From positions 186,001-250,000 of the forward strand of contig NC_013385.1 in assembly GCF_000024605.1 (NCBI RefSeq): DNA of 64,000 nt, given 5' to 3'. This document shows, piece by piece, positions 15,235 through 44,940 of this stretch. The stretch comes from Ammonifex degensii KC4 (lineage in GTDB: Bacteria; Bacillota; Desulfotomaculia; Desulfotomaculales; Ammonificaceae). The notes beneath the pieces were generated by a model. That model saw nothing but the letters and a program-made list of their open reading frames with translations. It ran no database searches and was not told the origin of the DNA. The translations under genes were made by a program, and so were the position numbers. Each line of letters opens with the position of its first letter. Position 1 is the first letter of the stretch.

Positions 15235-16287
15235 TTGTTGTGCGGCTACGCTACGGGAATCGGTAGTCTACCCTATCAGGAAGTGGAACCGGCTTTAAAG
15301 CTTGTTGCCCGCCACTTCTCCCTTTTCCCCCACTGGCCCCAACTACCGCGGCGGACGCGGGCCGAAGGCTTCGTCACCCAGTTCCTAAGCGGTCTTAAAG
15401 TGCACGGGGTCCTGGGGGAAGGGGAAAAGCCCAGCTTTCTCAACCAGGCCGAGGACTGGCCCGAGAGGCTCACCCGCTTTTACACCTTCTACCTGGGAGC
15501 GGAGGAGGGGAGCGAGGAGGCACTGGCCACTTTTATCCCGCCGCGCGAGGCCATAAGCGGCTTTTACGCTTTTCAAGAGGCGGTGGAGCGAGGGGAGTTT
15601 GCCCAGGCGCGGGCCTTTAAAGGGCAGATAGTAGGCCCTTTGACCGTAGGCTTTCAACTCACCGATGCGGCCGGACGCCCGGCCTACTACGACCCGGAGC
15701 TGCGGGAGCTTATCTTACGCACCCTGCAGCTGGCGGCCAGGTGGCAGGCCAGGGAGCTCAAGCGCTGGGGCAGGCCGGTGACGATCTTCATAGACGAGCC
15801 GGGCGTAAGCATTTACGGCCAGTCCACCTACATAACCGTCACCCGGGAGCAGATAATGGCCGATATGGGGGCCCTGGTCGCGGCGCTCAAGGAGGAAGGG
15901 GTTTACGTGGGGGTGCATTCTTGTGCGGCGGTGGACTGGAGCTTGCTCCTGTCACTCCCCATAGACATCCTGAGCTTCGACGCCTACGGCTACTTTTCTT
16001 CCCTTTTCCCCTTCCGCCGGGAACTGGCTGATTTCTTGGAGCGGGGAGGGGTTCTGGCCTGGGGGATAGTACCCACCAGCGAAAAAGCCTGGGAGGAAGA
16101 CCTCTCCTCTTTGCGCCGGCGGCTGGAGGAAGATTGGGCGCAACTGGTGGACAAGGGAATTCCGGAGAAGATCTTGCGGGAGCAGTGGCTGATAACGCCC
16201 AGCTGCGGCACGGGGCTCTTGCCCGAGGATCTGGCCGAGCACATCTACGCCCTGACCAGCACCCTAGCAGCTTCCCTAGGGGGATAA
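15235..16287 (+). CDS. Short MetE/UROD-like TIM-barrel protein (methionine synthase core homologue)
   Basis: Protein of 350 residues resembling only the C-terminal catalytic barrel of cobalamin-independent methionine synthase. Candidate zinc ligands are visible: HSCAAVDW (His and Cys), FIDEPG (Glu) and TPSCGTGLL (Cys). Full MetE has about 750 residues with an N-terminal folate-binding half, absent here, so a different methyl donor such as a corrinoid protein is likely. That is inference. TTG 15235 has AAGGGGG 9 nt upstream. The PHP phosphatase gene follows after 1 bp. Confidence 0.75.
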   Translation: MLCGYATGIGSLPYQEVEPALKLVARHFSLFPHWPQLPRRTRAEGFVTQFLSGLKVHGVLGEGEKPSFLNQAEDWPERLTRFYTFYLGAEEGSEEALATFIPPREAISGFYAFQEAVERGEFAQARAFKGQIVGPLTVGFQLTDAAGRPAYYDPELRELILRTLQLAARWQARELKRWGRPVTIFIDEPGVSIYGQSTYITVTREQIMADMGALVAALKEEGVYVGVHSCAAVDWSLLLSLPIDILSFDAYGYFSSLFPFRRELADFLERGGVLAWGIVPTSEKAWEEDLSSLRRRLEEDWAQLVDKGIPEKILREQWLITPSCGTGLLPEDLAEHIYALTSTLAASLGG

Positions 16288-17098: not shown

Positions 17099-17198
17099 AT
17101 TTTCCCTGAGGGCTAGCGGTTGGGGGGAGAGGAAGGTATAATTATCAGCGTTATAGGGGTATTCATTTCACAAACGTCGAAGGGGAGTGTGGGAAGAA

Positions 17199-17666
17199 GT
17201 GGCACCGGGCTTGCCTACGCCCAAAAAGTACTTCGTGACCGCCGGAGCCGCCGAAGGATCGACGCCGCTAAACGCTTTCGATAACGCGCTGCTGGCGGCC
17301 CGCATCGGTAACGTGAACCTCATCCGGGTTTCCAGCATCCTTCCGCCGGGAACCGAGTACGATCCCGATCTGGAACTTCCTCCGGGGGCGCTGGTTCCCA
17401 CGGCTTATGGCTACATCATCTCCACCACCCCGGGGGAGATAATCTCCGCCGCCTGCGGGGTAGGGATTTCGCGGGAAAGCTTCGGGGTGATCATGGAGTT
17501 TTCCGGCAAGTGCACCGCCCAGGAGGCCAGGGCCCAGATCGAGAGCATGATAAGGGAAGCATTTGCCCGCCGGGGCATGGAACTGGTGGACATGAAGATA
17601 GAAGCGGTGGAGCACGAGGTCAAGCGCATCGCTTGCGCCTTGGCGGCCGTGCCGCTCTGGTACTAG
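17199..17666 (+). CDS. pdaD: Pyruvoyl-dependent arginine decarboxylase proenzyme
   Basis: Converts arginine to agmatine, the first step of this polyamine route. The chain of 155 residues is a proenzyme that cleaves itself inside NLIRVSSILPPG, between S45 and S46 by analogy with the Methanocaldococcus enzyme, leaving a pyruvoyl cofactor on the alpha chain. Other family features are FVTAGAAEG at the N-terminus and GYIISTTPGEIISAACGVG. The length fits the archaeal-type family. GTG 17199 gives the usual start; the GTG at 17187 lies inside the SD. A TATAAT at 17137-17142 upstream may be its -10 box, but I see no good -35. speE follows after 20 bp. Confidence 0.93.
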   Translation: MAPGLPTPKKYFVTAGAAEGSTPLNAFDNALLAARIGNVNLIRVSSILPPGTEYDPDLELPPGALVPTAYGYIISTTPGEIISAACGVGISRESFGVIMEFSGKCTAQEARAQIESMIREAFARRGMELVDMKIEAVEHEVKRIACALAAVPLWY

Positions 17667-17686
17667 TTAGGGAGGGGAGAAGCAGC

Positions 17687-18520
17687 GTGGAGCTCTGGTA
17701 CACCGAGAACCAGAACGACGACCTGCGCTTCAGCTGCCGGGTGACCAGGACCCTGCACGTGGAGAAGACTCCCTTTCAGCACTTAGCCGTGTTAGAAACC
17801 CCTTGCTTTGGTCGGGTACTGGTGCTGGACGGTATCGTGCAGACTACGGTGTGGGATGAATTCATGTACCACGAAATGATCGCCCACGTCCCCCTCAACA
17901 CCCATCCCCGGCCGGAGAAGGTGTTAATCATCGGGGGAGGGGACGGCGGCACAGCCCGCGAGGTGGTACGGCACCCGAAAGTTAAAAGCGCGGTGATGGT
18001 GGAGATCGACGAACGGGTGATCGCAGTTTCCCGGCAGTACCTGCCAGAGCTCAGCCAGGGGCTGGACGATCCCAAGCTGGAGTTGCGGATCGAGGACGGC
18101 ATCGAGTACGTGACCAAGCACCCGGGAGAGTACGACGTGATCCTCATCGACTCTCCCGATCCCATTGGTCCGGCCAAGGGGCTCTTCGGGCGCCAGTTCT
18201 ACGAGGGGGTGGCGGCGGCGCTGAAGGAAGACGGGCTTTTCGTAGCCCAGACCGAGTCCCCCCTCTTCAACGCTGATCTCATAGCCGAGATTTACCGAAA
18301 CTTAAGGGAAATCTTCCCCATAGTGCGGCTTTACCTTACCTACGTGCCCACTTATCCGGGAGGGATGTGGAGCTTCACCTTGGCCTCCAAGAAGTACGAC
18401 CCGCTGGAGGTGAAGCCAGAGGACATCCCGCCTCTCTCTTACCGTTACTACAACGCCGAGATCCACCGTGCTGCCTTTGCCCTTCCGCAATTCCTGCAAG
18501 AGATTTTGCGCCGGGCGTAA
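17687..18520 (+). CDS. speE: Spermidine synthase (aminopropyltransferase)
   Basis: Transfers an aminopropyl group from decarboxylated S-adenosylmethionine to an amine. Of 277 residues, the N-terminal beta domain (1-60) begins with LWYTEN and is followed by a Rossmann methyltransferase-like fold. Motifs are YHEMIAHVP, IIGGGDGGTAREVVRH (nucleotide binding), MVEIDERVI, IEDGIEYV, and the catalytic DSPDPIGPAKGLF. Putrescine is the usual acceptor; in some thermophiles agmatine is used instead. GTG 17687 follows GGGAGGGGAG. It lies between pdaD and speB in one operon. No speD (decarboxylase of AdoMet) is in this window. Confidence 0.93.
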   Translation: MELWYTENQNDDLRFSCRVTRTLHVEKTPFQHLAVLETPCFGRVLVLDGIVQTTVWDEFMYHEMIAHVPLNTHPRPEKVLIIGGGDGGTAREVVRHPKVKSAVMVEIDERVIAVSRQYLPELSQGLDDPKLELRIEDGIEYVTKHPGEYDVILIDSPDPIGPAKGLFGRQFYEGVAAALKEDGLFVAQTESPLFNADLIAEIYRNLREIFPIVRLYLTYVPTYPGGMWSFTLASKKYDPLEVKPEDIPPLSYRYYNAEIHRAAFALPQFLQEILRRA

Positions 18521-18523
18521 AAG

Positions 18524-19396
18524 ATGGAAGTAAGAAGCCATACCTTTCTGGGGGCCGGAGAAGACTACGAAGGGGCAAAGGTGGTGCTGGTGGGGGCGGG
18601 GCTGGACGTGACCGTGTGCTTCCGGCCGGGGACGCGGGAGGGTCCCTGCGCCATCCGCCATCTGTCCCAATGCCTGGAAGAATATAGCCTGGATCTGGAA
18701 GGGGATTTGCGCGAAATCCCTTTCTGCGATCTGGGAGACATAGAGCTGCCGCTGGGACACGTAGAAAGCGCCTTGGAGGCGATCGAAGGAGTCGTTTCCC
18801 GGTTGGTAGGAGAAGGCAAGCTCCCCGTGCTTTTAGGAGGAGAGCACCTGGTGTCCCTGCCGGCCATTAAGGCCGTCCACCGCTACTATCCGGACCTGGT
18901 GGTTTTGCACCTGGACGCCCACGCCGACTTACGCGACGAATACCTGGGGACGCCCCTTTCCCACGCCACGGTGATGCGGCGGGTGGCCGAAATTCTGGGG
19001 CCGGGGCGCGTTTACCAACTGGGGATACGCTCGGCCGACCGGGAGGAGCTCGACTTCGCCCGGGAGTGGACGCGCCTCTACCGACACGAGGTCTTTCACC
19101 CCTTCCAAACGGTGCGGCCGGAACTGGAAGGCAAGCCGGTCTACCTCACCCTGGACATCGACGTGGTGGACCCGGCTTTCGCTCCCGGCGTGGGGACGCC
19201 GGAGCCCAACGGGATCACCCCGGCTGAGCTTTTAAAGACCATCCACACCTTGGAAGGTTTGCAGCTAGTGGGGGTCGATGTGGTGGAGGTCAATCCGGCC
19301 TTCGACCGAGCGGGTCTGGCTCCTTTACTCGCAGCCAAGGTCATAAGGGAGCTCCTCATAATCTGGGCGCGGGCGGAAGGCAGTCCTGGTGTTTAA
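18524..19396 (+). CDS. speB: Agmatinase / ureohydrolase family protein
   Basis: Binuclear manganese enzyme of 290 residues that releases urea from agmatine to give putrescine. Metal motifs are complete: LLGGEHLVS (His), HLDAHADLRDEY (three ligands), and LTLDIDVVDPAFAPG (two Asp). It starts 3 bp after the speE stop, the third gene of pdaD-speE-speB. With speE placed before it, the enzyme may act on N1-aminopropylagmatine instead of agmatine, as in Thermus and Thermococcus; sequence alone does not decide this. No terminator is visible before the 6S promoter. Confidence 0.92.
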   Translation: MEVRSHTFLGAGEDYEGAKVVLVGAGLDVTVCFRPGTREGPCAIRHLSQCLEEYSLDLEGDLREIPFCDLGDIELPLGHVESALEAIEGVVSRLVGEGKLPVLLGGEHLVSLPAIKAVHRYYPDLVVLHLDAHADLRDEYLGTPLSHATVMRRVAEILGPGRVYQLGIRSADREELDFAREWTRLYRHEVFHPFQTVRPELEGKPVYLTLDIDVVDPAFAPGVGTPEPNGITPAELLKTIHTLEGLQLVGVDVVEVNPAFDRAGLAPLLAAKVIRELLIIWARAEGSPGV

Positions 19397-19406
19397 TTCC
19401 GGGATC

Positions 19407-19435
19407 TTGCGCCTCCCCGCACATTGTGATAACAT
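19407..19435 (+). promoter_or_regulatory. Sigma-A promoter of the 6S RNA gene
   Basis: TTGCGC at 19407-19412, 17-bp spacer, TAACAT at 19430-19435. The predicted transcript start is about 19442, just before the closing stem of the RNA. Confidence 0.65.
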
Positions 19436-19441
19436 AACGGT

Positions 19442-19630
19442 AGAGAGAAGCCCTGCGGTGAGCGTGGACCTCTTGAAGTCCTGAGCCAACACCAAAAGAA
19501 AGGGAGCCCGGACTCTGGTTGCGGCTCGCACGCCTCCGCGTGAGGTAGCGAAAAGTGGCCAGGAGGGCACCCACCTGTCGGGGGACGGGTTCACGGAGAC
19601 TTTGAGGGTTCACGGCACGCGCGGGGTTTT
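19442..19630 (+). ncRNA. ssrS: 6S RNA
   Basis: 6S RNA binds the housekeeping RNA polymerase and mimics an open promoter. A long closing stem joins CCCTGCGGTGAGCGTGGACC (from 19451) to the 3' segment GGGTTCACGGCACGCGCGGGG (ending 19626), with a few bulges. Inside are AGTCCTGAGCCAACAC and GGTTGCGGCTCGCACGCC, which line up with the conserved CCUGAGCC and GGUUGGUGAGC strands of E. coli 6S. Length of about 185 nt fits the family. The stem is followed by TTTT, so it can act as its own terminator. mnmA begins about 40 bp downstream. The call rests on recall of family features, not a covariance search. Confidence 0.72.
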
Positions 19631-19671
19631 CTCTTGCGCGCAGAAGCGAAACAGGAGGTTTGCAAGCGCCG

Positions 19672-20706
19672 TTGACCCGCGTGGCGGTAGCCCTTTCCGG
19701 CGGCGTGGACAGCGCTACGGCCGCCTTCCTTCTCCTGCAGGCCGGCTACGAAGTCTTCGGGGTGACCATGCTGGTGACCGGGGAGGAGGGAGAAAAGGCG
19801 GCAGAGGTGGCGGCAAAGCTCAAGATACCCCATTTCGTTTTTGACCTGCGGCAGGAGTTTGCCCAGGAAGTTATAAAACCCTTCGTCGAGGCCTACCTTG
19901 CTGGCCTTACCCCCAACCCCTGCGTCTGGTGTAACCGCAAACTCAAGTTTGGTCTCCTGCTGGAGAAGGCACTGAAACTCGGCGCGGACTTTTTGGCCAC
20001 CGGCCACTACGCCCGCGTGTGGTTTGATCCTGCCCGCGAGCGCTACCTCCTGGCCAGAGGGAAGGACAGGCGCAAGGATCAGAGTTACTTCCTTTACTCC
20101 CTCAACCAGCAGCAGCTGGCCCGCGTGCTTTTCCCCTTGGGGGGGCGCACTAAGGCGGAAAATCTGCTTTTGGTAAAGAAGCTGGGCCTTCCCTTGCGGG
20201 AAGAAAGCCAGGACGTTTGTTTCCTTAAAGGCGGCGATTACCGGGAACTCATAAAGGCTATGGCCCAAGAAAAGGTAAAGCCCGGCCCCATCTTGGACCC
20301 ACAGGGGAAAAAGATAGGCACCCACCGGGGCTTGGCCTTTTATACCATAGGGCAGAGGCGGGGGCTGGGGCACGCTTGGGGAAAGCCCTACTACGTCCTG
20401 GCCCTTGACCCCCGCCGCAACGCCCTCATCGTGGGACCGGAAGAAATGCTTTACCGCCCTTCCTGCCGGGTCGAAGGGATTAATTTCATCCTTTTCGAGC
20501 GCCCTCCTGGTCCTTTCACGGCTGCTGTGCAGGTGAGGTACACTTCCCCCGCCGTCCCAGCCACCCTTTTTCCCGAAGGGGAAGCAGTGCGGGTGGAGTT
20601 TGCCTCTCCCCAGCGCGCCGTGACCCCGGGGCAGGCGGCGGTCTTTTACCAGGAGGACCTAGTAGTAGGTGGCGGTACTATTGCTCCTTACGGAAGCGAC
20701 GGGTGA
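19672..20706 (+). CDS. mnmA: tRNA-specific 2-thiouridylase MnmA
   Basis: Puts sulfur on U34 of Lys, Glu and Gln tRNAs. Of 344 residues, the N-terminal PP-loop domain has VALSGGVDSATAA (ATP site); the two catalytic cysteines are C84 in NPCVWCN and C183 in QDVCFL. A central domain follows (FYTIGQRRGLG) and then a C-terminal beta-barrel. TTG 19672 gives MTRVAVALSGG, the usual start; AGGAGG at 19653-19658 is 13 nt away, a little long, while TTG 19660 is only 1 nt from it. The last 29 bp overlap the convergent bpsA gene. Confidence 0.92.
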   Translation: MTRVAVALSGGVDSATAAFLLLQAGYEVFGVTMLVTGEEGEKAAEVAAKLKIPHFVFDLRQEFAQEVIKPFVEAYLAGLTPNPCVWCNRKLKFGLLLEKALKLGADFLATGHYARVWFDPARERYLLARGKDRRKDQSYFLYSLNQQQLARVLFPLGGRTKAENLLLVKKLGLPLREESQDVCFLKGGDYRELIKAMAQEKVKPGPILDPQGKKIGTHRGLAFYTIGQRRGLGHAWGKPYYVLALDPRRNALIVGPEEMLYRPSCRVEGINFILFERPPGPFTAAVQVRYTSPAVPATLFPEGEAVRVEFASPQRAVTPGQAAVFYQEDLVVGGGTIAPYGSDG

Positions 20707-21754
20707 AGATGAGCGCTTCCTGGTCTTCGTAAAGCGGTGCTCCCTTCATTTCCTCTTCGTGCCGGAAGAAGTTATCGTCCACCGTCTCTATCCGGAACAT
20801 GGCCGAGCGGTACCAGTTGTAGCGCGGCCAGGTTTGCACGAAGGAGAGGTCATTGCGCACGCTCTCCAGGAGGTAATCCCAGTTGACGTACTCGTTGAAG
20901 TCGTGAATGATGTCAGTTATCACCACGTTGAACTGGCCGGTGAGTTGGGCCTGGAAGGCGCGCCACTTGGTCAAAGAGGACTCAGCACGGGTAAGTCCGA
21001 AGTAACCGGCGCACCCGGCCCCTTTGAGCCCCGACAGGCCCCTGCCGATGAAGATGGCCAGGGCTTCTAAGGTTTCGGGCGGGTCGGTGAGGAAGGTGTC
21101 GAACTGGCGCCTGAGTTCTGCGGGCAAGGGGTGTACGAGGTCGAAGATGTGGGCTTCCACGGGCAGGTTTTCTTTCTCGGCTACCTGCCGGATGAAGTTG
21201 ACCAGGCGCTCGTCCACCTCCAGGACCACCACCCGCCGGGGGAGACCGGAAAGACCAGCGGCCAGGCTCACCAGGTCGTCATCTCCCAGCACCAGAAGGT
21301 CCTTGCCCTGGATGTCGCCGCGGTCGGCCATTAAGGCTATGCGGGCTACGGTGGTCTCCTCGGTCACGAACCCTTGGTCGTAGTCGATGATGGGGAGCGG
21401 CCTCTCCGCCACCACCTCTTTGAAGCGGTTGAGTAGATCCTGCCACCGCTCGATGCTTATACCACGCCGGTTGCAGGCTTTACACCCCGACTCGATGGGC
21501 GGCTTTATTCCCTGTTCGTCTACCAGCTTGCGGCCGGCCGGGGTGAGCTCCAAGTGCTGGTTTTCCACCTTGACCCAGCCGCGCTCGGCAAAAAACTTGA
21601 GGCTTTCCGCCACCACGTTGAAGGGACGGCCAGAAAGGTGGGTTATGTGCCAGAATTCTTTGGCACAAGCCAAAGCGCCCAGAACCTTCTTCAGGTCAGC
21701 GCTCGTAATAGGGATTCCCGTCCTTTTGGTAAGCTCAGCAGCGTAAGCTTCCAT
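20678..21754 (-). CDS. bpsA: Branched-chain polyamine synthase (N4-bis(aminopropyl)spermidine synthase)
   Basis: Adds two aminopropyl groups to the central nitrogen of spermidine, making quaternary branched polyamines that protect nucleic acids at high temperature. Of 358 residues, the N-terminal half has a winged-helix-like segment and CKAC (C91, C94); the Rossmann half has GDDD at 157-160 and DPPE at 224-227, the catalytic motifs of the Thermococcus enzyme. The C-terminus has a conserved DFNEYVNWDYLLESVR-like block. ATG 21754 has AAAGGGAGGGG. It lies close to pdaD-speE-speB but is convergent to mnmA and has its own promoter, divergent from rnr. Confidence 0.92.
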   Translation of the reverse strand: MEAYAAELTKRTGIPITSADLKKVLGALACAKEFWHITHLSGRPFNVVAESLKFFAERGWVKVENQHLELTPAGRKLVDEQGIKPPIESGCKACNRRGISIERWQDLLNRFKEVVAERPLPIIDYDQGFVTEETTVARIALMADRGDIQGKDLLVLGDDDLVSLAAGLSGLPRRVVVLEVDERLVNFIRQVAEKENLPVEAHIFDLVHPLPAELRRQFDTFLTDPPETLEALAIFIGRGLSGLKGAGCAGYFGLTRAESSLTKWRAFQAQLTGQFNVVITDIIHDFNEYVNWDYLLESVRNDLSFVQTWPRYNWYRSAMFRIETVDDNFFRHEEEMKGAPLYEDQEALIFTRRFRKEQ

Positions 21755-21800: not shown

Positions 21801-21829
21801 ATACTACATGCTTTGTCCCTGAAAAGCAA
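21801..21829 (-). promoter_or_regulatory. Probable sigma-A promoter of bpsA
   Basis: Read on the minus strand: TTGCTT (21829-21824), 17-bp spacer, TAGTAT (21806-21801), about 47 nt before the bpsA start. Its -35 box touches the -35 box of the rnr promoter on the other strand. Confidence 0.6.
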
Positions 21830-21847
21830 GTGGTCGCGTGGTATAAT
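21819..21847 (+). promoter_or_regulatory. Probable sigma-A promoter of rnr
   Basis: CTGAAA at 21819-21824, 17-bp spacer, perfect TATAAT at 21842-21847. The expected transcription start, 6-8 nt after the -10 box, falls on the rnr start codon at 21854, so the mRNA may be leaderless. Confidence 0.65.
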
Positions 21848-21853
21848 AAAGGT

Positions 21854-24001
21854 ATGGTTACCAAGAAGGAAATTCTGGAATTCATGAAAGCCGGGGCCTA
21901 CCGCCCGCTGACCCTTAACGAGTTGGCGCGGATCTTTCTTCCCGACGGTAAGGGTCTGGGAGCCTTTAAGCGGCTTTTGCGGGAGATGGAAGAAGAGGGG
22001 CTTATATACCAGACGCGGGCGGCGCGCTACGGCCTGCCGGAGCAGTTCAACCTGGTGGTGGGGCGCCTAGAGTGCCACCCTCGGGGTTACGCCTTTTTAG
22101 TGCCCGACCGCGAGGGGGAGCCCGACGTCTTCATCCCTCCCGGCTGCCTGGGAGGGGCTATGCATCAGGACCGGGTGGCGGTAAGGCTCTTCCCCGGCAG
22201 TCACGGGCGTACCCGGGAGGGGGAAGTGGTGCGGGTGCTGCGGCGTGCCCACCGGCAGCTGGTGGGCACGCTTTACAAGAAGCGTCGTTCGGTCTTTGTG
22301 GTTCCCGACGATCCCCGGCTCACCCACCAGGTGGTAATTCCTAAGGGCAAGCTCAACGGGGCGCGCAACGGGGAAAAGGTGGTGGTGGAACTCACCACCT
22401 ATCCTGGTCCCTACACTCCGGCCGAAGGCCGGGTGGTGGAGGTCCTGGGGCCGGAGGACGCCCCCGGCATGGATATGCTGGTCCTCTGCCGGCGCTATGG
22501 GTTGCCGGACGGCTTCCCGCCGGAAGTGGAGGAAGAGGCGGAAAACATCCCCTTGACCATAAGGCCGGAGGAACTGGCGGGAAGAAGGGACTTGCGGGAG
22601 TGGCTGATCGTAACCATCGACGGGGAGGACGCTAAAGACCTGGACGACGCGGTGAGCCTGGAGCTCCTGCACGATGGGACCTACCGCCTGGGCGTGCACA
22701 TAGCCGACGTGAGCTACTACGTGCGGGAGGGGAGCGCGCTCGACCGGGAAGCCTTCCAGCGGGGTACCAGTATTTATCTGCCCGACCGGGTCATACCCAT
22801 GCTCCCTCCCCGGCTCTCCAACGGGATATGCAGCCTCAACCCAGAGGAAGATCGGCTCACCTTGTCGGTGCTCATGCGCGTTGACTCCAAGGGGGAGGTT
22901 CTGGAGTACGAGCTCTTCCCCTCGGTTATCCGTTCTAAAGCGCGGCTCACCTACCGGGCGGTCAACGACTACCTAGCGGGAAGGGGCGGGGTTCCTGCTC
23001 CCCTACCGGGCCTGGGCCGCATGCTGGAGCTCATGCAGGAACTCTGCCTTTGCCTCAGGCGCCGGCGTTTGAAGCAGGGGGCGATAGACTTCAACCTGCC
23101 GGAGACCAAGGTGGTCCTGGACGAGGAAGGGCGCACCGTAGACGTTTACCCGGCAGAGCGGGGCATCGGGGAGCAGATTATAGAGGAATTCATGCTCCTG
23201 GCCAACGAGACGGTGGCACGGCACGCGGCCAAGCTCCAGCTCCCCTTTATCTACCGGATCCATCCGCAGCCCGACCCGGAGAAGGTAGCCAGCTTAGAGG
23301 AGCTTTTGGCCAGCCTGGGTTACCAAAACACGCGGCTGGGCACTCTGGAGCCGGCGCGTTTCCAGGAGGTGCTGGAGGCCGTGGCCGGCAAGCCGGAGGA
23401 GCGGCTGGTGAACGCGGTGATGCTCCGCTCGCTCAAGCAGGCGCGCTACGCGGCCGAGAGGAGCGAGCACTTCGGCCTGGCCTCCGAGTACTACACGCAC
23501 TTCACTTCCCCCATCCGCCGCTACCCCGACCTTTTCATCCACCGCGTCCTGCGGGAGACGGTGCTCAAAGGAGCTGGCCTTTCTCCCAGGCGGCGGGCCC
23601 GGCTGGAGAAGCTGGCGCAGGAGGCGGCGGCGCAGTCTTCCGAAAGGGAGCGCCTGGCCATGGAAGTGGAGCGGGAAGCGGTGGACATAAAGAAGGTGGC
23701 CTTTATGGTGGATAAGGTAGGCCGGGAGTATGCGGGCTTCATAAGCGGGGTCACCAACTGGGGCCTTTATGTCATGCTGGAGAACACGGTGGAAGGTCTG
23801 GTACACGTACGCCACCTCACCGACGACTTCTACTTCTACGACGAGAAAAACTACGCTCTGGTGGGGCGGCACACCGGGAAGCGCTGGCGGCTGGGCGATC
23901 CGGTGCGGGTGCGGGTACTGCGGGCTTCGGTACCCGAGAAGCTGGTGGAGTTCAGCCTCTTGACAGAGGCCGAGGCCCCCGATAAACTTTCATGTGTATG
24001 A
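21854..24001 (+). CDS. rnr: Ribonuclease R
   Basis: 3'-to-5' exoribonuclease of 715 residues that degrades structured RNA. Order: N-terminal winged helix (about 1-75), cold-shock domains (80-220), RNB catalytic domain (235-565; [16 protein letters not shown] carries the Asp cluster that binds Mg) and C-terminal S1 domain (about 625-700, [17 protein letters not shown]). ATG 21854 gives [18 protein letters not shown], the usual family start. No SD precedes it, and the -10 box ends 6 bp upstream. In many Firmicutes rnr sits near smpB and secG; here it is followed by rplM after 19 bp. Confidence 0.93.
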
Positions 24002-44750: not shown

Positions 44751-44769
44751 GGCCAGAAAAAGGTTCATA

Positions 44770-44940
44770 GACTTTAAGCGCCAGGACCGGCCTTGGCTTA
44801 AACAAAAGGCCGGTTGACGAGGTGGAGGTTTATCGAGCTTTCGGCGGATGCCTCCCGGCTGGCCACGGCCGTTAGCGGTGTTACAAAACCGGCAGGCAAC
44901 TGCCGGGACAAAAGCACCAGGTGGCAAAAGGGGTATTGTT
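44770..44940 (+). ncRNA. glmS self-cleaving ribozyme/riboswitch
   Basis: Cuts its own mRNA when glucosamine 6-phosphate binds, shutting off GlmS. Conserved blocks match the family: AGCGCCAGGACC (from 44777, cleavage expected between A44777 and G44778), a P2 stem ACCGGCC/GGCCGGT, then ACGAGGTGGAGGTTTATCGA, TTCGGCGGATGCCTCCCGGC, and the 3' pseudoknot part AAGCACCAGGTGGCAAAAGGGG. It ends about 70 nt before the glmS start codon. Confidence 0.95.

Follow-up and report, generated by a model that had tools for sequence, protein, structure and literature searches.

The stretch of DNA analysed here, called the window throughout, comprises 64,000 nucleotides of Ammonifex degensii KC4 (NC_013385.1, positions 186,001 to 250,000; C1:186001-250000 in the numbering of our searches, which covered the whole assembly of 2,157,067 bases in 2 contigs). 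It holds four polyamine genes, pdaD, speE, speB and bpsA, intact at the place where an initial annotation had put them. All four score far above curated cut-offs in profile searches, so the names given then stand. The first gene, pdaD (17187..17666, + strand; the start may be GTG 17187 or GTG 17199), encodes the proenzyme of a pyruvoyl-dependent arginine decarboxylase (PF01862, TIGR00286). It is followed after 20 nucleotides by speE (17687..18520, +), an aminopropyltransferase gene of the spermidine or N1-aminopropylagmatine synthase kind (PF01564, PF17284, NF002010), and this after 3 nucleotides by speB (18524..19396, +), for an agmatinase-family ureohydrolase with agmatine or N1-aminopropylagmatine as its substrate (TIGR01230 and metal-site motifs). 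These three genes form a tight operon (17187-19396, +), as the annotation had said. The fourth gene, bpsA (20678..21754, - strand), for a branched-chain polyamine synthase (PF01861 and a map of its residues), lies 1281 nucleotides from the end of speB, in agreement with the distance of about 1.3 kb first given. Between them are two genes outside the pathway: a 6S RNA gene (19447..19631, +; RF00013, 88.3 bits, gathering score 46.4) and mnmA, for a tRNA 2-thiouridine synthase (19660..20706, +; NF001138, 367.6 bits, cut-off 284). The mnmA and bpsA genes are convergent, with 3' ends that overlap by 29 nucleotides, and because of this and of the two intervening genes bpsA stands outside the operon. 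Our promoter scan gave no promoter-like site upstream of pdaD and our terminator scan gave 5 terminator-like sites against 6.8 in shuffled sequence, which is no excess, so the borders of the operon were not obtained in this way. We believe the locus is very probably an operon that leads from arginine to spermidine, with an unlinked bpsA nearby for branched polyamines.

The arginine decarboxylase is well placed in its family. PdaD matches PF01862 at 168.6 bits (cut-off 22.7) and TIGR00286 at 152.4 (cut-off 106.95); it is under the cut-off of NF009064, the other matching model (56.8 vs 207). Counted from 17187, Ser49-Ser50 falls on the chain boundary of a solved archaeal enzyme, whose separate beta and alpha chains align up to residue 49 and from residue 51, and Glu104 is aligned as well, within IME. 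The Ser-Ser pair is the expected site of self-cleavage, and the Glu is a conserved residue of the family. It is the single PdaD match in the genome. The initial annotation presented the archaeal-type steps of the cluster as something special, and this part we do not retain. PdaD is over its cut-off in 139 of the 398 genomes that we searched from the same phylum (140 at E <= 0.001). Its surroundings were compared at the 30 best matches, less the 2 from Ammonifex, with 1.5 kb taken on each side: 26 of these 28 loci have speE downstream of pdaD in the same orientation, speB is present as well in 23, and speD stands ahead of pdaD in 2. PdaD genes as a whole may show another rate, since these are the best-scoring loci and only short flanks were taken. 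With PdaD so frequent and the operon so conserved, the "archaeal" decarboxylase is native to the phylum, and pdaD, speE and speB in this order are a common operon there and not a recent archaeal import.

The other two enzymes of the operon are bacterial in type. SpeE is matched by PF01564 (239.5 bits) and PF17284 (59.5), and more specifically by NF002010 (383.2, cut-off 260) and TIGR00417 (347.4, cut-off 249.55). Its nearest solved structure is 1iy9, which we take to be SpeE of Bacillus subtilis, at 345 bits and 51% identity (139 of 273 residues); the Thermotoga maritima enzyme follows at 270 bits and the Thermus thermophilus enzyme 1uir at 170. SpeB is over the cut-off of TIGR01230 (277.6 bits, cut-off 174.3) and under that of NF002564 (203 vs 302), and it has GGEH at residue 105, DAHAD at 131 and DIDVVDP at 211, presumably its metal-site motifs. 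It is the only match to the arginase family (PF00491) in the genome. The annotation had noted that speD is missing from the window, and the genome search located it: the one PF02675 match is at C1:1461506-1461826, 1.26 Mb off, and is a class 1b SpeD of the Bacillus type (TIGR03330, 155 bits, cut-off 75.65). The open reading frame that adjoins speD (L001 2127-3311) resembles, by eye, the transposase of an insertion sequence. No match to agmatine deiminase was found in the genome, nor was an ornithine decarboxylase found there with the two families of pyridoxal phosphate (PLP) fold, PF02784 and PF01276. With the first, the alanine-racemase fold, the only gene is one over the LysA cut-off. With the second there is one decarboxylase homologue of the aspartate aminotransferase (AAT) fold, which is below the cut-offs of all NCBIfam models it matched and lies directly upstream of a gene read by eye as tmk (thymidylate kinase). 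According to part of PMC8503589, the place before tmk is that of YaaO in Firmicutes, and deletion of YaaO leaves the polyamines of B. subtilis unaltered.

BpsA matches PF01861 at 313.4 bits (cut-off 27) and no NCBIfam model at E <= 0.001. It scores 335.5 bits against the BpsA of Thermococcus kodakarensis (5xnc) and 246.5 against that of T. thermophilus (6j28), and it is 98% identical to the BpsA of Ammonifex thiophilus. The motif GDDD is at residue 157, and in the alignment the equivalents of T. kodakarensis Asp225, Glu259, Tyr290 and Tyr316 are D, E, Y and Y. The roles of such substrate-side residues, and of acidic residues in the C-terminal tail as carriers, are described for the T. kodakarensis enzyme in the passages of PMC12979288 used here. 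In a tree of 45 rows the BpsA of the window falls among 21 Bacillota rows that form one set (support 99/98), and none of the 5 archaeal rows (88/65) is in it. The Thermus enzyme 6j28 groups with two other genomes of the phylum, G110 and G031 (100/99), and 16 further rows from the phylum make a separate set (100/100). The tree is drawn with a midpoint root for display only and has several long branches; it omits three named loci, duplicates of G322, G250 and G264, as well as the divergent partial matches G019, G311 and G393.

Over the same 398 genomes, BpsA exceeds its cut-off in 43 (58 at E <= 0.001), at least 5 of which have partial and divergent copies. In the order of Ammonifex the gene is patchy: outside the genus it occurs in 2 of the 13 genomes of the sample, both from the set of 16 rows. 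The annotation had called branched polyamines a trait of thermophiles, and here a connection between BpsA and high temperature is borne out. Reverse gyrase is encoded in 10 of the 398 genomes, that of A. degensii among them (C1:1418673-1422068), and all 10 also carry BpsA. This spread is fitting for a high-temperature trait. According to passages of PMC12175538, no mesophile is known to carry bpsA. Divergent homologues such as that of G311 are no counter-example to this restriction, since they align poorly and have no tail. The G+C content of 16S rRNA points toward high temperature too, for the few BpsA genomes in which a gene was matched: 0.623 in A. degensii, 0.598 in G187, 0.599 in G037 and 0.683 in G353 (part of the gene), with 0.519 in G311, the genome with the divergent homologue. 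This search was weak, with a match in 5 of 30 genomes on the BpsA side and in 18 of 30 without BpsA, complete genomes being among the misses; the latter 30 were chosen by hand and not at random, and with the value of G061, which came from a wrong position, excluded 17 are usable. Of these 17 values, 15 fall in the range 0.512-0.570, while the other two reach 0.641 and 0.649; BpsA is therefore lacking in some likely thermophiles. The share of the amino acids IVYWREL in the proteins of the neighbourhoods is much the same for the clade of the Ammonifex type (mean 0.435) and for the other BpsA clade (0.433) and does not separate them; for the three divergent homologues it is 0.39-0.41. As a separate observation, the divergent BpsA_C homologues L111, L112 and L113 have 25-31% identity and keep GDDD, the acidic tail is absent from them, and one of their genomes has a low 16S G+C.

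The predicted pathway can be laid out from these parts, of which the genome has a single set. Self-cleavage of PdaD at Ser49/Ser50 would create the pyruvoyl group with which the enzyme would decarboxylate arginine to agmatine. SpeE, using decarboxylated S-adenosylmethionine supplied through the distant SpeD, and SpeB would together convert agmatine to spermidine. BpsA could then aminopropylate spermidine once or twice at N4, with acidic residues of its tail as carriers, the expected products being N4-aminopropylspermidine and N4-bis(aminopropyl)spermidine. The capacity for spermidine and then branched polyamines that the annotation proposed is thus supported by the matches of families and motifs, from which the activities and products are predicted.

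Several points weigh against this reading or parts of it. The carrier tail of BpsA is PLYEDQE (residue 340) where that of T. kodakarensis is ELYDDEE, so that 3 of the 5 positions are acidic (P-E-D-Q-E vs E-D-D-E-E); these positions were matched by the motif, since the numbering in PMC12979288 is 2 lower than that of the alignment in the tail. Other BpsA proteins of the clade likewise have 3 or 4 acidic carrier positions, so PLYEDQE looks more like a habit of the clade than like decay. The link of BpsA with reverse gyrase has a hypergeometric P of 8e-11 if the genomes are independent, and this overstates the association because the 10 genomes come from 3 genera, 7 of them from one. Passages of PMC11107197 report a trace of aminopropylagmatine from the E. 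coli synthase and none from those of Pseudomonas aeruginosa and a phage, and in the same source Li et al. find no motif that distinguishes spermidine from aminopropylagmatine synthases; with no such motif, the use of agmatine by SpeE cannot be read from its sequence. The AAT-fold homologue of A. degensii is like YaaO in place only. The open-licence literature yielded no paper on polyamines in Ammonifex, and a measurement may exist elsewhere. Finally, of the other BpsA neighbourhoods compared, 40 in number, 36 gave no spe gene.

This last point bears on whether it means anything that bpsA lies so near the operon. On balance we lean to the view that this is chance, with bpsA transcribed separately and spermidine alone joining it to pdaD-speE-speB. 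The 40 neighbourhoods represent all but two (G354 and G363) of the 42 other genomes over the cut-off, and some end at the ends of contigs. Spe genes closely related to those of the window occur in 3 of them, A. thiophilus (G322), G110 and G031, while G138 has a weak SpeB-like match (30%). Because the remaining neighbourhoods are without a spe gene, the closeness seen here may be accidental, and the opposite strand and the intervening 6S RNA and mnmA genes say the same. The two proteins are also distributed independently: PdaD is in 16 of the 43 genomes with BpsA and in 124 of the 355 others (Fisher P 0.87), and co-occurrence of the two across the phylum is rejected. Against chance stands A. 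thiophilus, where this layout is kept (L002 and L076, one record), yet that is a species of the same genus. True clusters of bpsA with spe genes also exist. G110 and G031 (L074, L075) have bpsA-pdaD-speD-speE, then a gap and speB, all on one strand and with a BpsA of the Thermus type, and these loci are to be read as a nearly complete branched-polyamine cluster; a Njordarchaeota record (L007 3556-6751) has speD-speB-bpsA-speE consecutively. Such clusters suggest that BpsA and spermidine synthesis belong together functionally; they do not speak for a special tie in Ammonifex.

The order of the two middle steps is the next question. We think it probable that SpeE acts first on agmatine, giving N1-aminopropylagmatine, and that SpeB then hydrolyses this to spermidine. 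The annotation drew the same route from the position of speE between pdaD and speB. That argument has to be dropped, since this order is a habit of the whole operon family and is silent on the order of reactions. The route itself remains plausible, through the 51% identity to the B. subtilis enzyme and the failure to find an ornithine decarboxylase. In the parts of PMC11107197 used here, agmatine served as an aminopropyl acceptor for 17 of 18 bacterial spermidine synthases, and the B. subtilis SpeE, whose use of agmatine is about that of the T. kodakarensis enzyme, formed N1-aminopropylagmatine in E. coli. Li et al. propose in that paper that the aminopropylagmatine route is the default wherever arginine decarboxylase is the source, so for a SpeE of this type the idea has been published before. 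The classical route, in which SpeB makes putrescine from agmatine and SpeE aminopropylates the putrescine, would leave the remainder of the pathway unchanged, and we hold it to be a serious competitor with the lesser share of the probability. SpeB is over the agmatinase cut-off and SpeE over those for spermidine synthases, and the same three genes would serve either route, so that gene order cannot separate them. It is disfavoured by the acceptance of agmatine among close relatives of SpeE and by the lack of putrescine in B. subtilis, both reported in passages of PMC11107197.

The genome also has a second aminopropyltransferase, at C1:1877718-1878578 on the - strand (L010, L134). Its best solved match is a plant thermospermine synthase (168.8 bits), and it has Glu in motif 2, which according to part of PMC11107197 is the mark of most thermospermine synthases. 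One could therefore argue that the main higher polyamine is linear and thermospermine-like, with BpsA minor or shifted in its substrate. Two of the five carrier positions of BpsA are not acidic, and passages of PMC12175538 state that thermospermine can replace the branched polyamine in T. kodakarensis. We consider this unlikely. In the second enzyme GTGEG replaces the GGG(D/E)G of the others, and its score is below the polyamine aminopropyltransferase cut-off (206.9 vs 260), while BpsA retains all the catalytic residues that were compared, those of the tail excepted. The gene is overlapped by 32 nucleotides by an upstream gene for a radical S-adenosylmethionine (SAM)/SPASM protein, which many NCBIfam models match, the 25 shown all below their cut-offs; by eye the row continues with pantothenate and NAD genes. 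Close relatives of the aminopropyltransferase among 80 genomes of the order are those of A. thiophilus (96%) and G453 (two copies, 58% and 56%), the next being at 39%. A radical SAM gene lies beside it in A. thiophilus and at one G453 copy (42%), and none was seen at the other copy with a crude pick of open reading frames. We found no relevant report of such a pair in open-licence literature, and it is the only element here for which no described counterpart was found. It is conceivable, though a long shot, that spermidine made without free putrescine is shared by BpsA and the second aminopropyltransferase, the latter with its radical SAM partner making a modified, hitherto undescribed polyamine; the pool would then be part branched and part something new.

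A recent acquisition of pdaD and bpsA from archaea is scarcely credible: BpsA does score higher with the archaeal than with the Thermus enzyme and the nearest solved PdaD structures are archaeal, but the solved PdaD matches include no bacterial one and so cannot discriminate, the spread and conserved operon of PdaD speak for the phylum, and the tree, in which the window's BpsA stands apart from the archaeal rows, does not bear out such an origin.

A few other features of the window were noted in passing. An open reading frame of 350 residues at 15235-16287 has no Pfam or NCBIfam match at E <= 0.001 and by eye recalls methionine synthase and UroD-like methyltransferases. At 21819-21856 there is a promoter-like site with an extended -10 element (10/12), which ends 6 nucleotides before the ATG of a gene named by eye as RNase R-like, so the mRNA of that gene may have almost no leader. 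A glmS ribozyme is at 44766-44928 (120.1 bits).

Among the closest described systems is that of T. kodakarensis, where PdaD, SpeE (TK0147), TK0882 and BpsA perform the same four steps as predicted for Ammonifex, with a preference for agmatine shown in the sections of PMC12979288 used here, whereas the Ammonifex SpeE is known from sequence. The BpsA proteins agree in their catalytic residues outside the tail, but the best matches of the Ammonifex SpeE are bacterial, those of B. subtilis and T. maritima. B. subtilis has a SpeE that is 51% identical to this one and makes both spermidine and N1-aminopropylagmatine (part of PMC11107197). It differs in obtaining agmatine with a PLP-dependent arginine decarboxylase of the AAT fold (part of PMC8503589) in place of PdaD, and its genome, used as a control, has no BpsA match. 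The operons of the phylum have the genes, order and strand of Ammonifex in 23 of the 28 loci compared, with speD joining in 2. The T. thermophilus BpsA is of the same family and has GDDD, and its tail is acidic, but it is more distant and clusters in the tree with G110 and G031, not with Ammonifex.

The genes are real and ordinary, then, and the annotation misread them in part: this BpsA adds one more member to a known family, next to an operon that is itself common. If our reading is right, one further lineage of thermophiles would pair a putrescine-free route to spermidine with branched polyamines, using SpeE and SpeB of the bacterial type. It could then be tested cleanly, in a genus other than Thermus and Thermococcus, whether organisms with arginine decarboxylase as their sole source use the aminopropylagmatine route by default. 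The survey, for its part, maps the spread of BpsA in the phylum, in 43 of 398 genomes, with every reverse-gyrase genome of the sample included.

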